In this document: positions 18,871-51,368 of the stretch, piece by piece | Layout: every line of letters starts with the position of its first letter | Numbering within the stretch: the first letter of the stretch is position 1 | Source of the DNA: Kangiella sp. TOML190 | GTDB taxonomy: Bacteria; Pseudomonadota; Gammaproteobacteria; Enterobacterales; Kangiellaceae | Reading direction: 5' to 3' | Length of the DNA stretch: 64,000 nt | Assembly (NCBI RefSeq): GCF_023706045.1 | Contig: NZ_BQYL01000001.1 | Location: 124,001 to 188,000, forward strand | Program-made: the position numbers and the translations under genes | The notes under the pieces: model-generated | Database searches by the model: none | What the model saw: only the letters and a program-made list of their open reading frames with translations | What the model was told of the DNA's origin: nothing

Positions 18871-19776
18871 TTACTGCTTAAAACTGGGGTCGAACTTAAT
18901 GGTGGCATCTTTTAATACCGCCATCACCTGCGGATCGTCAGAAACTGGAAACGGAGCCGACTTTCTAATAGCTGTGGTTCCGGTATCGCAATAGTCCAAA
19001 TCACCATCGGTACTTTTAATACCTAACAAAATCCCACCTGGGCCAATAGTAAAGTTAATGACACAATTACCATCGCCGCTGGGCATATTCCAGTTGCGCC
19101 TTACTTTGGCACCAATGGCATTCCGAAGCTTTTCCACTTCGCTCATGATCTGACTTTGGCGCACCGCACCTTTATCCGCTTCAAACAGCTCATCATCCAG
19201 CGAAGCCTCTAACGCTTCCAGCTCTTTGCGTTTACGCTCTGCTTCTTCACGTTTTTTCCGCTCCGCCTCTTTACGCTTACGCTCGGCTTCCGCCTTTTTC
19301 TTTTTTTCCGCTTCTTTTTTCTTGCGCTCAGCTTCTGCTTTGCGCTTCTTTTCTGCCTCGGCTTTACGCTTTTTCTCAGCTTCGGCTTTTTTTTGCTGCT
19401 CTAATTTTTTCTGTTCCAGTTGCTCTTGCTTTAGCTTCTGTTGTTTTAGCTTTTCGGCTTGCTCTTGCTCTAACTTTTGCTGCTTGAGTCTTTCTTGCTC
19501 AAGCTCTTTTTGCTTTTGCTCTTCAAGCTTCTGCTGCTCTAACTTTTTTTTAGTCTCATCCAGCTCTTTTTGCCGTTGCTGCTTTTTCTTAAGGCTAGTG
19601 GCGTCTTTTTTTGGAATTTCCGGCGCCGTGACTAAACGTGCTTTAACCGGCGAATCCACAAACTGTTTATTGGTCTCATCAGGGCTGAAAGCAAAGTTCC
19701 ATAGCAACAATCCAATTAAGCCCACATGGAGCAAAATTGCTAGCGCAACCGGTACTATATTCTTCTTATATGGCAA
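18871..19776 (-). CDS. tolA: Tol-Pal system protein TolA
   Basis: TolA spans the periplasm and transmits proton-motive force from TolQR to Pal. It has one membrane span (about 8-29), a long Lys/Glu/Gln/Ala helix from about 60 to 200 with repeats such as KRKAEAEKKRK, and a compact C-terminal TolA domain (about 212-301) with two cysteines (GNCVINF, LDYCDTG) that probably form a disulfide. At 301 residues it is shorter than E. coli TolA (421) mainly in the helix. The skewed composition produces a long but meaningless open frame on the opposite strand. Confidence 0.95.
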   Translation of the reverse strand: MPYKKNIVPVALAILLHVGLIGLLLWNFAFSPDETNKQFVDSPVKARLVTAPEIPKKDATSLKKKQQRQKELDETKKKLEQQKLEEQKQKELEQERLKQQKLEQEQAEKLKQQKLKQEQLEQKKLEQQKKAEAEKKRKAEAEKKRKAEAERKKKEAEKKKKAEAERKRKEAERKKREEAERKRKELEALEASLDDELFEADKGAVRQSQIMSEVEKLRNAIGAKVRRNWNMPSGDGNCVINFTIGPGGILLGIKSTDGDLDYCDTGTTAIRKSAPFPVSDDPQVMAVLKDATIKFDPSFKQ

Positions 19777-46228: not shown

Positions 46229-46771
46229 TCAAGCCACCAATTGGCTTCTATCGAGTAATTTATGAAGTTTTACTTTAGCACGTTGAATGTGCGATTTAAC
46301 AGTCCCCAACGGTATTTGGGTTACTGCCACAATCTCGGAATGGCTCATGGCCGCTGACATAAATAAAGTCATCACCACCCTTTCATCCGCAGATAAAACC
46401 TGCATTAATTTTTCAGCTAATAGATCCGCTTCAATTTCACTCTGCGGATTATTAACCAGTATCGCCTGATTTTCGTCAAGCTGCAGCAGCGGATGCTTTT
46501 GTATATGTCGCAAAAATAAGCGATACGCGATGGTATGAAGCCAAGATTTAAAACTGCCGGTAGCTTTAAAAGTATGTAACTTTTGATAGGCCATTAGAAA
46601 TGTCTCTTGTGCTAAATCATCCGCCTGCGCCTGATCGCCAGCGGTGAGCCGCCTTAGAAACTGCCGGATCATTGATTGATAACGCACCACTAACTGACTA
46701 AATGGCGCCTGCTCATCACCGCTGATGGCCAAAGCCACCAGCTCAAGATCCGTTTTGGATGCTAAATTCAT
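46229..46771 (-). CDS. ECF-type RNA polymerase sigma factor
   Basis: The 180-residue protein has sigma region 2 (FSQLVVRYQSMIRQFLRRL...DDLAQETFLMAYQKLHTF, SFKSWLHTIAYRLFLRH) and region 4 (SAAMSHSEIVAVTQIPLGTVKSHIQRAKVKL). It is clearly distinct from RpoE in the same window. I use the ATG at 46771; a TTG two codons upstream is also open. It lies between a DUF6249 gene and a small membrane protein gene, a compact three-gene cassette. The target promoters are unknown. Confidence 0.9.
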   Translation of the reverse strand: MNLASKTDLELVALAISGDEQAPFSQLVVRYQSMIRQFLRRLTAGDQAQADDLAQETFLMAYQKLHTFKATGSFKSWLHTIAYRLFLRHIQKHPLLQLDENQAILVNNPQSEIEADLLAEKLMQVLSADERVVMTLFMSAAMSHSEIVAVTQIPLGTVKSHIQRAKVKLHKLLDRSQLVA

Positions 46772-46780
46772 TCCCAATGG

Positions 46781-47152
46781 TTAGTCGTTGTAACGATTAA
46801 GTTTCCACACCAACAAGAAACCAGCGCCAATAAATAAAGGCAATAAGGAAATAATTCTAAAAAATTCTTTTGGCTCTGGAGAGCTAAACATAAAGCTCGC
46901 CACAACTCCAGCAACACCTAATGCTGATAAAATAATACCTCGGCGTAGATCTTTAATTCGCGGAGGTTGAACCGCTTTGCTATGGCTAAGCTTCTCCAGC
47001 AGTTCTGGCGTTAAGTTGGAGCCATTTTCTACCGCTTTTTGCACCGTTTTCATGGTGGCGAGCTTGTTTTTGTGGCCATAATAAAAAAAGCTGATGATAA
47101 CCGCCGCCAACGAAATAAACATCACAATTGGAATCCAAAGTTCTTCACCCAT
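46781..47152 (-). CDS. DUF6249 membrane protein of the ECF cassette
   Basis: This 123-residue protein has an N-terminal span (about 6-25), a cytosolic loop with NGSNLTPELLEKLSHSK and RIKDLRRGIILSALGVAGV, and two more spans (about 69-87 and 94-115). The pattern matches the DUF6249 family as I remember it, often beside ECF sigma genes. It starts the cassette (ATG with AGAGG seven bases upstream) and ends only a few bases before the sigma gene. It may be a sensor or regulator; nothing is established. Confidence 0.75.
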   Translation of the reverse strand: MGEELWIPIVMFISLAAVIISFFYYGHKNKLATMKTVQKAVENGSNLTPELLEKLSHSKAVQPPRIKDLRRGIILSALGVAGVVASFMFSSPEPKEFFRIISLLPLFIGAGFLLVWKLNRYND

Positions 47153-47346: not shown

Positions 47347-49275
47347 CTATTTATGGGATTCAATCCAACTCTTAATTTTCGACTCAAGAATATTCAGCGG
47401 CAAAGAACCGTCTTTTAACACTTGGTAGTGAAATTCTCGAACATCGAACTTATCACCCAGCTCCAACTCCGCTAAATTTCTAAGTTCACGAATTTTCAGC
47501 TGGCCAATCTTATAGGCTAGTGCCTGACTGGGGATCGCCATAAAACGTTCCGCTTCCGACACACGCCGCGCTTCAGCGACAGGTGAATTCATTTGCATAT
47601 ACTCTAATACTTGCTCACGAGTCCAGCCTTTAGCATGTAAACCGGTATCCACCACCAAGCGAATGGCGCGCCATAATTCAGCACTTAAAGCACCAAAGTA
47701 TTGATAAGGATCCGTATAGACACCCAACTCTTTACCCAAAGACTCTGCATACAAGCCCCACCCTTCGATATAAGCAGTGGTTCCGCCAAAACGCCTAAAG
47801 TCTGGAATATCCTCTAGCTCTTGTTGGGTAGAGAGTTGGAAGTGGTGGCCAGGAACGGCTTCGTGCAAATACAAAGATTCGACCGCCCAGCTAGGGCGTG
47901 CCGATAAATCATAGGTATTTACATAGAAAATTCCAGGGCGGCTACCGTCTGGCGAAGCACTCTGGTAAGAGGCTCCCGAAGCCGACTGCTCACGAAATGG
48001 CTCTACCGCACGGATCTCGAACTGCGCTTCAGGAATCACTTTAAATAGACTCGGCGCCGCTGCATCAAGGCTTTCGCGCAAGCTTTCATAGGCATCCAGC
48101 ATCGCTTGTTTATCTTTAAAAATAAATTGATCGTTGGTTTTGGTAAATTCAAAAAACTCCTGCATAGAACCAGTAAATTCAACCTCCTGCATCACTTTTT
48201 TCATTTCTTGATGAATTCTAGCCACTTCATCCAAACCAATCTGATGGATTTGATCAGGAGTTAAATCGGTACTGGTAGTTTGTTTAACCTTGAAGGCATA
48301 CCAATCTTTACCGTTGGGAAGCGCCACCATGCCATCTGTATCTCTCGCCGCTGGTAAATATTCCTTTTCGATAAAGTCGTGCATTTTTTGATAGGTTGGA
48401 ACTACGATCGATTTAATCGCTTCAACGTAAGCACTGGACAAACGTTTTTTATCTTCCAACGAAAAACTCTCTGGCATGTTTTTCACTGGCCCATAAAACA
48501 AGCTCTTTTCCACGTCATCAACTAGATGCGCTTGCAGTTGAGGTAGTACCTTGACCATTAGTACCTTAGGTTGCACCACCCCTTTTTCAATTCCTTGACG
48601 CATATTGCCAATCGCCGTGTCCGCTGCTGTTGGTAATTCGGATAGTCGACTAAGCCAGTTTTCGTAGTCTTTCACTGTCTTAAAAGGTTGTGCGGACTGA
48701 CCAGAACCTAACATCGCGAAGAAATTAAAAGGGTTATAGAATTGCTGGATAGGCTGCAGATGATCAAGATACTGCTCAGCGGCTTTTTCCGCCAATCGCT
48801 CGTCCTTAAAAATTTGATAGCTGAGTAAATCTTGTCCCGACAACTTTGAAGCATCGATTTGATTAATTTTATTCAGAAACTCTTGGTTAAAAGCTTTGCG
48901 TATGGCCAAACCTTCTTTCGAACCAAAATCCCCCAATCTATCGTTGTAGCGATTGTCGCCTTGGAACGTTGCCATAATTGGATTTAGCTGCAAATGGCGC
49001 TGCCAATAGTTTTTATAGATCTGGTTAGCTTTATCCGCTTCACTAAGCTTGTAGAGCGGCGTTTCCGGCTTAGCTTGCTCAGCTTTAACCACAGTATTTT
49101 CTACTGGCTGGCTAGCATCTTGACTAATCGCATCAGCTTTTTCTACCGCCGCGCTATCGCTCTGAGGAGTATTCTGGGATTTGCTATCAGGGTTCGACTT
49201 CTGATCTTGGTTACATGAAATCAATAACAGGCTGGTTACCACGATAGCAGTCAACTTAAGCTTAATGGATTGCAC
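47347..49275 (-). CDS. DUF885 family metallopeptidase lipoprotein
   Basis: The 642-residue protein has a signal peptide with lipobox LLISC (Cys21, followed by Asn) and then a Ser/Gln/Asp-rich linker to about residue 70. The DUF885 domain carries the zinc-binding motif HEAVPGHH at 471-478 and the downstream YIEGWGLYAE glutamate, typical of this predicted thermolysin-superfamily group. It is likely an envelope-anchored dipeptidase or oligopeptidase. It stands alone between a terminator and its own promoter. Confidence 0.88.
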   Translation of the reverse strand: MQSIKLKLTAIVVTSLLLISCNQDQKSNPDSKSQNTPQSDSAAVEKADAISQDASQPVENTVVKAEQAKPETPLYKLSEADKANQIYKNYWQRHLQLNPIMATFQGDNRYNDRLGDFGSKEGLAIRKAFNQEFLNKINQIDASKLSGQDLLSYQIFKDERLAEKAAEQYLDHLQPIQQFYNPFNFFAMLGSGQSAQPFKTVKDYENWLSRLSELPTAADTAIGNMRQGIEKGVVQPKVLMVKVLPQLQAHLVDDVEKSLFYGPVKNMPESFSLEDKKRLSSAYVEAIKSIVVPTYQKMHDFIEKEYLPAARDTDGMVALPNGKDWYAFKVKQTTSTDLTPDQIHQIGLDEVARIHQEMKKVMQEVEFTGSMQEFFEFTKTNDQFIFKDKQAMLDAYESLRESLDAAAPSLFKVIPEAQFEIRAVEPFREQSASGASYQSASPDGSRPGIFYVNTYDLSARPSWAVESLYLHEAVPGHHFQLSTQQELEDIPDFRRFGGTTAYIEGWGLYAESLGKELGVYTDPYQYFGALSAELWRAIRLVVDTGLHAKGWTREQVLEYMQMNSPVAEARRVSEAERFMAIPSQALAYKIGQLKIRELRNLAELELGDKFDVREFHYQVLKDGSLPLNILESKIKSWIESHK

Positions 49276-49339: not shown

Positions 49340-49564
49340 TTCACAAGCTCACTCTTTTCAATACTTTTCACATTGATTAAGTGCCTTATTCTTCGATCTT
49401 TACTCCTCCTGAATAGCTAGAATTTAGAGTTTTACTGGCTTGTGACCATAACTTTTACGAAAAAAACGATAGAACTACTAAACCCTTTGCATCCAAAAAC
49501 CATCTTAACAGTATCTTTAATTTAATATCTTTGAACAAAACTCTTACATTCAGCGAGGGAAATT

Positions 49565-50428
49565 ATGAATAGATTAGCTAAAACCATAGCAACCGCAGGC
49601 TTATTAACGCTCAGTACGGCTCTATGGTCGCTAGATACGCAGCGTCAATTAAGCCTTGATGTTAACGGACTTGATGAGTTTATTGTGGACGTAGGCGCAG
49701 GCTCGCTAAGCATCGAAGGTAAACCGGGCGCAACACAAATAGCCGTTGAAGCGAGAATTACCATTGATGGTGTTGATAAAGACGAAGCGGAGCAATGGAT
49801 GCAGGATTATATGGATTTGTCATTAAAACAAGTTAAGGGTAAAGCCTTACTCTGCGCCACCTTTAGTTACAATAAACGCTCTGACTGCTCCACTGCTAAA
49901 AAACTAGGTTCAAGCTGGTTTGGCTGGAACGATGAGCGCAAGATTGATCTAGTGGTGACCATGCCACAACATTTGTCGCTAGAGGTTGACGATGGTTCTG
50001 GTTCGATGCAGCTAAGCAATCTTAAAGCCGATGTTTTTATTGACGACGGCTCTGGTGATATTGAAATTAACAATATTGCAGGACACCTGCAGGTTGACGA
50101 TGGTTCAGGTAACTTAGAAATCACCAACATTAGGGGCAACTTAGAGGTAGATGACGGCTCAGGAAACTTAAGCATAACGGACGTCGAAGGCGATCTCTAT
50201 GTAGAAGATGGCTCCGGCAAGCTGATCATTGATCAGGTGACAGGTGAAGCCGAAATTGAAGACGGCTCTGGCGATATCAAAATCACCAACGTCGCCAAAA
50301 AGGTTTATATCGACGATGGCTCTGGCTCGGTTCATGCCTGCCACTTAGGAGCGGATCTAACTGTAGATGATGGTTCAGGCGAAGTAGATACCTGCGACGA
50401 TATTAAAGGCAAAGTAGTTATTAAGTAG
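49565..50428 (+). CDS. exported beta-solenoid protein with eight DDGSG repeats
   Basis: The 287-residue protein has a signal peptide (about 1-22), an N-terminal domain with a degenerate repeat-like VDVGAGSLSIEG at 41-52, and from residue 141 eight tandem 18-residue repeats of the form V-[DE]-D-G-S-G-x-[LIV]-x-I-x-x-[VLI]-x-G-x-[LV]-x. The regular period and alternating hydrophobics predict a right-handed solenoid like the DUF4097/GIN-type adhesin domains. Acidic DDGSG turns stacked in register could bind calcium, which is inference. Cysteines occur at 97, 108, 259 and 277, so disulfides may cap the solenoid. GAGGGA gives a clear ribosome site. No partner gene is evident. Confidence 0.85.
   Translation: MNRLAKTIATAGLLTLSTALWSLDTQRQLSLDVNGLDEFIVDVGAGSLSIEGKPGATQIAVEARITIDGVDKDEAEQWMQDYMDLSLKQVKGKALLCATFSYNKRSDCSTAKKLGSSWFGWNDERKIDLVVTMPQHLSLEVDDGSGSMQLSNLKADVFIDDGSGDIEINNIAGHLQVDDGSGNLEITNIRGNLEVDDGSGNLSITDVEGDLYVEDGSGKLIIDQVTGEAEIEDGSGDIKITNVAKKVYIDDGSGSVHACHLGADLTVDDGSGEVDTCDDIKGKVVIK
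49985..50416 (+). repeat. eight in-frame 54-bp tandem repeats
   Basis: Each unit encodes 18 residues beginning V/I-D/E-D-G-S-G; starts are at codons 141, 159, 177, 195, 213, 231, 249 and 267. Nucleotide identity between units is moderate (GATGGTTC, GACGGCTC and similar alternate), so the array is old rather than freshly amplified. Confidence 0.9.
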
Positions 50429-50566: not shown

Positions 50567-50593
50567 GCCCTAGCAGCTCGCTAGGGCTTTTTT
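50567..50593 (+). terminator. rho-independent terminator after the solenoid gene
   Basis: GCCCTAGC-AGCTC-GCTAGGGC is a perfect 8-bp stem followed by six T, about 140 bases past the stop codon. Confidence 0.9.
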
Positions 50594-50822: not shown

Positions 50823-51368
50823 ATGCATGCGGTAAAATTAGACTCCACCGAAAAACACGGCCCTTCATCTTTTAGTAGAGAAGAGTTGATACGATGTGGC
50901 GAAGGTGGAATGTTTGGTGAGGGAAACGCTAAACTGCCAATCGGCAATATGTTAATGATGGATCGCATCACCAAAATTCAGCAAGCTGGCGGCGCCTTCG
51001 ATAAAGGTCAAATTGTAGCAGAACTGGATATAACCCCAGATTTGTGGTTTTTTGGTTGTCACTTTAAAGGGGATCCAGTAATGCCCGGCTGCCTTGGAGT
51101 GGATGCCTTGTGGCAGCTTTCAGGTTTCTTTCTGCCTTGGCTGGGCCACCCTGGCAAAGGCCGTGCTTTAGGCGCCGGGGAAATTAAATTTACTGGCCAA
51201 GTACTTCCCACAGCCAAGCTTGTGACTTATATTATCGACATCAAACGAGTCATTACGCGAAAATTAAAGATGGTCATTGCCGACGGGCGTATGTTGGTAG
51301 ATGATCGTGAAATTTATACGGCTAAAGATTTAAGGGTTGGTTTGTTCCAATCTACCGATGATTTCTAG
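50823..51368 (+). CDS. fabA: 3-hydroxydecanoyl-[ACP] dehydratase/isomerase FabA
   Basis: FabA dehydrates 3-hydroxydecanoyl-ACP and isomerises the product to the cis-3 form, the entry to unsaturated fatty acids. The hotdog-fold sequence is canonical: [32 protein letters not shown] with catalytic His80 and Asp94, [21 protein letters not shown] choose the ATG at 50823 (181 residues; AAGG eight bases upstream); a TTG 23 codons earlier gives an unlikely basic extension. E. coli FabA has 172 residues. It is paired with fabB 30 bases downstream. Confidence 0.97.

Follow-up and report, generated by a model that had tools for sequence, protein, structure and literature searches.

How a small, apparently exported protein of Kangiella comes to be built on a strict acidic repeat, and what such a protein could do in the cell envelope, is the question raised by an open reading frame in the 64,000-nucleotide stretch of DNA analysed here (hereafter the window), which belongs to a genome consisting of a single contig of 2.45 Mb. 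The gene (49565..50428, + strand) starts with an ATG at 49565, has its stop codon ending at 50428, and is preceded by a putative Shine-Dalgarno-like GAGGG located 5 bases 5' of the ATG (49555..49559, + strand). On the evidence of the open reading frame, a structural model and profile kinship, it encodes a probably exported, 287-aa beta-helix of the Toastrack type, in which eight coils carry [DE]DGSG. The protein can be divided into a predicted signal-peptide-like segment (residues 1-22; 49565..49630, + strand), an N-terminal Toastrack part delimited by alignment, model and profile comparison, which contains a GAGSL turn and an IDLVVTMP strand (residues 23-137; 49631..49975, + strand), and, as judged from the repeat count and the model, eight coils of 18 residues (roughly residues 138-281; 49976..50407, + strand).

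The [DE]DGSG motif recurs at residues 142, 160, 178, 196, 214, 232, 250 and 268, giving eight copies at an exact spacing of 18 residues, whereas at most two copies (mean 0.006) arose when its residues were shuffled 20,000 times. The strict 18-residue array that the earlier note had described for the last half of the protein is thus fully borne out. The last coil contains one additional residue near its end (TCDDIKG). Identity between coils ranges from 28-67% at the protein level, with coils 3 and 4 forming the most similar pair (67%), and from 43-67% at the DNA level, and the array is not among the repeats reported by Tandem Repeats Finder. Given this DNA divergence and the absence from the Tandem Repeats Finder output, the array is old and probably maintained by selection, rather than the product of a recent DNA expansion. 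The other six Kangiella proteins have seven coils each compared to the eight found here, and the lineage of the window protein has therefore probably acquired an extra coil. Among 30 relatives outside Kangiella, 29 contain 6-10 turns by script count, and a single turn was counted in the remaining one (L079), which has a different turn type. Elsewhere in the window, short 24-base tandem arrays at 19229-19389 probably represent a coding repeat.

Turn statistics and the family alignment are based on 37 proteins, namely the window protein, L002-L022, L024, L025, L062-L064, L068 and L071-L079, of which L011 and L062 were not trimmed to their start codons. The alignment leaves out L023, which matched with divergent turns, L026-L030, which have another turn type or only a paralogue, L031, which lies on the same contig as L002, and L065-L067, L069, L070 and L080, which have another turn type or an open reading frame that was not picked by the script.

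Profile comparison assigns the window protein to the Toastrack superfamily, which in the terms of one passage of PMC11237479 unites DUF4097, DUF2154 and DUF2807, with 4QRK and 4OPW as named structures. Comparison by hhalign with a profile of ten proteins obtained from DUF4097 searches (L033-L041 and L106, without L032) gave a match of 99.5% (E 3.5e-22), in which the 185 aligned columns take in the N-terminal part; this profile includes the genome's own second Toastrack protein. The best NCBIfam match of the window protein is LiaG (NF049997; E 4.4e-16), which is matched by 37/37 members at E <= 0.001; its 58.9 bits compare with an equivalog cut-off of 285. Pfam DUF4097 (PF13349, gathering cut-off 22.9 bits) left the window protein unmatched even at E 10, and among the 37 members, DUF4097 was matched by seven and DUF2807 by one at E <= 0.001, the window protein being in neither group. 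Judged by these profiles, the protein is therefore placed within the Toastrack superfamily, outside the LiaG equivalog and outside the curated Pfam model. LiaX matched the window protein weakly (E 0.0031). Several other candidates were discarded: the best sub-threshold Pfam match, to the beta-helical trimerization domain PF21930 (24 bits against a cut-off of 27, over 28 residues; 10/37 members at E <= 0.001), was set aside because it was judged to reflect shared beta-helix repeats; a PDB sequence search with the single protein returned only lysozyme (E 1.6), a chance match; and a PDB search with the family profile returned 3rwx (E 0.074) and centrin (E 0.13), neither of them significant. The genome also encodes a second Toastrack (DUF4097) protein (260 aa; L106:1111-1890, genome position about 1,243,900), which has TVNG-type turns and passes the Pfam DUF4097 cut-off; when the entire genome was searched with DUF4097, that gene alone was returned and not the window gene.

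An AlphaFold2 model computed from the 37-sequence alignment (pLDDT 89.7, pTM 0.85), which replaced a single-sequence model that was poor beyond the coils (pLDDT 62.9), has its coils at 95-99 and a low-confidence stretch at residues 111-121 of the N-terminal part. In the model, each 18-residue coil consists of two strands joined by the [DE]DGSG turn, with a further turn leading into the next coil. VIA-align matched this model over residues 22-279 to 3jx8 (Z 18.5, 225 aligned residues, 3.2 Å) and to 4opw (Z 17.3), over residues 21-279 to 3lyc (Z 18.3) and 3ljy (Z 17.7), over residues 21-260 to 3pet (Z 16.6), and over residues 23-207 to 4qrk (Z 13.9, 157 aligned residues), and the alignments to 4opw and 4qrk match the superfamily's plan of a beta-helix with a special N-terminal strand region to the modelled window protein. 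The same fold was also found in PDB 7muc chain AM, from the Legionella Dot/Icm C1 reconstruction (Z 14.7). Foldseek returned the same PDB entries with a best E of 7e-7, but at low TM-scores of 0.20-0.47 by query length and rmsd values of 7.7-13.3. We take 3jx8 and 3lyc to be DUF2807 structures, and 3ljy, 4opw and 3pet are termed so in a section of PMC10949514. These five GIN-type Bacteroidales structures, a group to which PGN_1547 also belongs, align with the greater part of the chain (Z 16.6-18.5) but share only 9-12% identity with the window protein. A beta-helix fold is thus well supported by the prediction and its structural matches, and the window protein is, as far as profiles and model can tell, a new member of a poorly understood superfamily. 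The turn motif sets it apart, with DGSG in place of the T-V-S-G or T-G-S-G of Toastrack. The solenoid proposed in the earlier note agrees with the two strands per coil and the Toastrack-type crystal matches, and its naming of DUF4097/GIN proteins as the nearest relatives with the hhalign, VIA-align, LiaG and Foldseek results.

The N-terminus reads as a Sec signal, with a charged start followed by a hydrophobic stretch; residues 1-22 have low pLDDT, and relatives carry Sec-like or lipoprotein-like starts. The window protein is thus probably Sec-exported and most likely periplasmic, possibly with an uncleaved membrane anchor. A canonical lipobox is present in 12/37 family proteins and in 0/7 Kangiella proteins (the pattern returned 14/37, from which L012 and L064, with Cys at residue 9-10, were discounted; TTGC in L009 lies outside the pattern and was not counted). 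With Sec-like starts and lipoboxes in relatives, this Toastrack family looks exported, unlike the intracellular location predicted for Toastrack in a passage of PMC11237479. According to parts of PMC9239133, LiaG is a DUF4097-domain protein whose DUF4097 domain is extracellular, with a beta-propeller motif, and these accounts conflict with each other on DUF4097 (an intracellular beta-helix versus an extracellular domain with a beta-propeller motif). Solved structures and secreted-looking relatives favour an exportable beta-helix for DUF4097. LiaG of Bacillus subtilis is membrane-anchored, whereas the window protein has only a signal-peptide-like start.

Matches at E <= 0.001 were found in 31/61 related genomes, including the window's own. 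Within Kangiella, the repeat gene is present in 7/20 genomes (two of the 20 being <90% complete); 17/17 genomes in the rest of the family matched, some by weak, paralogous matches only, as did 7/24 genomes in the rest of the order. At E <= 1e-10, matches were found in 10/369 genomes of a class sample and in 15/398 of a phylum sample, the window's own genome being counted in both; the two samples overlap with each other and with the related-genome sample. A contig search confirmed one relative among 91 candidate stretches, the remaining relatives originating from the genome search. A phage collection contained no match. Plasmid records yielded nine matches, seven in large Pseudoalteromonas replicons and two in Listeria; record NZ_CP030101.1 is a 2.9 Mb Listeria monocytogenes sequence, the size of which suggests a chromosome filed as a plasmid.

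In all seven Kangiella carriers the repeat gene lies between a divergent gene that we take from its sequence to be DUF885-like (47347..49275, - strand) and a downstream fabA-like gene, presumably fabA by its motif (50823..51368, + strand), which constitutes a fixed flank in Kangiella; presumably, fabB is also among the flanking genes. One extra gene intervenes in two carriers, on the DUF885 side in L043 and on the fabA side in L047. A terminator-like hairpin (8 pairs, 6 of them G-C) followed by a T run was identified by a hairpin scan between the repeat gene and fabA (50567..50587, + strand), which suggests that the repeat gene has a transcript of its own; the region contains three terminator-like sites, compared with a shuffle mean of 1.7 (sd 1.4). 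A sigma-70-family (ECF-like) gene adjoining a gene for a DUF6249 protein was observed at 46229-47152 (- strand), about 2.4-2.8 kb from the repeat gene. Both adjoin the DUF885-like gene in 4/6 other Kangiella carriers; the 14-kb loci L045 and L046 contain neither. Neighbours outside Kangiella differ, and no conserved operon partners were found there. The gene is preceded by those for a LysR regulator and a ketol-acid reductoisomerase in one related genus, and a second genus has a metallo-beta-lactamase-fold gene and a Na+/H+ antiporter nearby; all of these look incidental.

The fabA gene was found in 19/20 Kangiella genomes. Among the 12 fabA-containing genomes without the repeat gene, four (G010, G018, G002 and G005) have a DUF885-like gene directly beside fabA, and the other eight have no DUF885 match inside the fetched 1.5-kb flank of fabA. 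In these four Kangiella genomes (loci L093-L096), the junction of the DUF885-like gene and fabA has the appearance of an empty site for a clade-specific gene. In a FabA tree, the seven carriers are separated from the other genomes by a branch with a support of 88/99, which is under the 95 mark for ultrafast bootstrap. On this tree, one gain or one loss would explain the carrier pattern in Kangiella. Since most of the examined Kangiella lack the gene, the genus can do without it.

To compare the turns, each coil was numbered from the first D/E of [DE]DGSG as position 0. Positions -3, -1, +6, +8 and +11 are hydrophobic in 86-100% of coils and should therefore form an inward core. This coil count took only D[GSAN]SG coils, so that Asp conservation within it holds by construction; the alignment and the position-0 counts are freer of this restriction. 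In the alignment of 37 proteins, six of the eight columns of the second turn Asp show a conservation of 90% or more, and the turn Ser and the last Gly vary little or not at all in seven of eight; in the last coil, the turn Asp is absent from most relatives (EGSG, AGSG and similar). Capping of tight turns is a known property of Asp, Asn, Ser and Thr, and the invariant Asp therefore most likely holds the turn. In paralogous Toastrack turns (TVSG, TGSG etc.), the Asp-equivalent position is occupied by T in 53, S in 24, D in 18 and N in 1 of 117 cases (T/S/D 95/117), with a pattern that also picks up some non-turn stretches, and these substitutions point to the second Asp most likely being a turn cap. 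Position 0, by contrast, is predicted to be exposed and is an acidic edge at the genus level, nearly strict in Kangiella (acidic in 48/50 coils, or 47/49 with a pattern that misses one L004 coil, DDGSGW) and loose elsewhere (110/214 coils of relatives outside the genus, 8 of the 214 being out-of-register GSGG matches). The other residues at this position in the relatives include N in 31, K in 21, T in 18, V in 11, S in 10 and R in 6 coils. As the turn falls at the same place in every coil by the strand register of the model, the turns should stack along one edge, in line with the earlier proposal of acidic turns along one face. The window protein has a net charge of -30 for residues 23-287 and the highest acidic-over-basic excess per length among the 50 window open reading frames of at least 150 aa. 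Among the 30 relatives, acid-acid neighbours at position 0 number 69, versus 58.3 in shuffles, with 0/5000 shuffles reaching 69; this excess would fit an acidic patch, although the test is weak because related sequences were treated as independent. Alternating charges or a salt-bridge ladder were rejected, with acid-base neighbours being fewer than in shuffles (22 vs 28.3).

The window protein contains four cysteines, Cys97 (49853..49855, + strand) and Cys108 (49886..49888, + strand) in the N-terminal half, with counterparts only in L002 and L003 among the 37 proteins, and two in the array, Cys259 in coil 7 (50339..50341, + strand) and Cys277 at the equivalent position of coil 8, 18 residues on (50393..50395, + strand). 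The two cysteines that the earlier note had placed in the last two coils are those of the array. A pair placed one coil apart at equal coil position is present in 7/7 Kangiella proteins, compared to a cysteine pair in the array of 0/30 non-Kangiella relatives. As C259 and C277 occupy the same position in adjacent coils, their side chains should be close enough for a disulfide, and the pair probably forms a clamp at the C-terminal end of the rod, which leaves the cap proposed earlier plausible.

Taken together, we hypothesize, with a probability of roughly 60%, that the window gene encodes a probably Sec-exported single-domain Toastrack beta-helix forming an acidic rod, which would provide the envelope with a passive scaffold for binding or assembly. 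According to the model and homology, the N-terminal Toastrack part would be followed by eight two-stranded coils whose hydrophobic residues at the five positions named above would point inward; DGSG would form a tight turn capped by its Asp, the preceding D/E would be exposed and stack into the acidic edge, and the two array cysteines may close the C-terminal end as a disulfide clamp. By analogy with proposals for LiaG and GIN proteins, a role of such a rigid rod as a scaffold or binding rod in the envelope appears most likely.

One alternative is that the modelling produced a spurious solenoid and that the repeat region becomes ordered only on binding. The turns are rich in Asp, Gly and Ser, and AlphaFold2 over-predicts beta-solenoids for perfect repeats, as reported in a part of PMC11795689, which calls for caution; yet the repeats here are imperfect and diverged with a clean alternating hydrophobic pattern, and crystal homologues and profile kinship back the fold, so that we regard an artefact as scarcely credible. 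A further alternative retains the fold and takes the acidic edge to be a surface for calcium or other divalent cations, with ions bridging adjacent turns and calcium-dependent folding or binding. RTX beta-rolls are the obvious comparison, in which GGxGxDxUx repeats bind calcium and the 18-residue coil likewise has two short strands. The nearly strict acidity of position 0 in Kangiella, the net charge and the excess of acid-acid neighbours would all suit such a surface, and the structural matches include an RTX chain (7usl_C), although at Z 9.0, far under the GIN structures. However, the window protein contains no match to GGxGxD or its relaxed form, and its acidic residues are placed otherwise. 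EF-hand loops have Asp at position 1, D/N/S at positions 3 and 5 and an acid at position 12; the window protein yielded no EF-hand or DxDxDG match, and Val or Ile replaces loop position 1 in 8/8 coils. The VIA-align matches listed include no EF-hand protein or protease-type roll, an absence that carries no weight, and the centrin profile match is, as noted, not significant. Furthermore, position 0 is K/R/H in 28/214 (Lys/Arg in 27) and N/T/S in 59/214 relatives' coils, the second Asp position is mostly Thr, Ser or Asp in paralogous turns, and the adjacency test has the weakness given above. The cation binding by acidic turns that the earlier note had suggested is thus possible but unsupported; the turns look more like structural corners than calcium sites, and we consider a cation surface improbable. 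Similarly improbable is a continuous edge for metals or cationic ligands along the stacked DGSG turns, in which the double-acid ladder of Kangiella (two carboxylates per coil in eight coils, with the disulfide at its end) would hold a row of Ca2+/Mg2+, a cationic peptide or a polyamine, as a Toastrack analogue of the RTX roll with another turn chemistry. If true, an ion row on the acidic ladder would constitute a new metal-binding scaffold; the evidence leans against it. No mention of DDGSG was found in the papers searched.

Two further readings assign the rod a more specific task. It might be a surface adhesin that is displayed on the outer membrane and mediates attachment or the formation of biofilms, as reported in a section of PMC10949514 for the DUF2807 protein PGN_1547, the deletion of which impaired both. 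The close structural matches 3ljy, 4opw and 3pet are titled 'putative adhesins', but this wording is a structure title and not a test, and while a third of the family carries a lipobox, none of the Kangiella proteins does and the sequence shows no sign of an outer-membrane anchor, which makes an adhesin unlikely. Alternatively, the protein might belong to a Lia/PSP envelope-stress pathway together with PspC or PspA. A link between Toastrack and PspC/PspA is drawn in a passage of PMC11237479, and the C-terminal domain of LiaX controls the membrane response in Enterococcus, as stated in part of PMC11601895. The uniform LiaG matches of the family, one PspC in the genome and the sigma-70-family gene nearby agree with this reading. 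By contrast, the genome search found no PspA (0/1 genomes matching PF04012, covering PspA/LiaH, at E <= 0.001), no psp or lia gene and no lia operon was recognised among the neighbours (eight proteins family-searched, others read or unnamed), and the sigma gene is missing from the two carrier loci named above, which renders a stress-pathway role very doubtful.

An acidic scaffold in the envelope, our preferred reading, bears on a fold whose domains are widespread and whose molecular role is still open in the literature, as described in parts of the sources cited here. The subfamily is small, regular, stand-alone and secreted-looking and thus offers a simple system for examining an extracellular role of the Toastrack fold, and it argues against Toastrack being an intracellular domain in general, as predicted in the passage of PMC11237479 referred to above.
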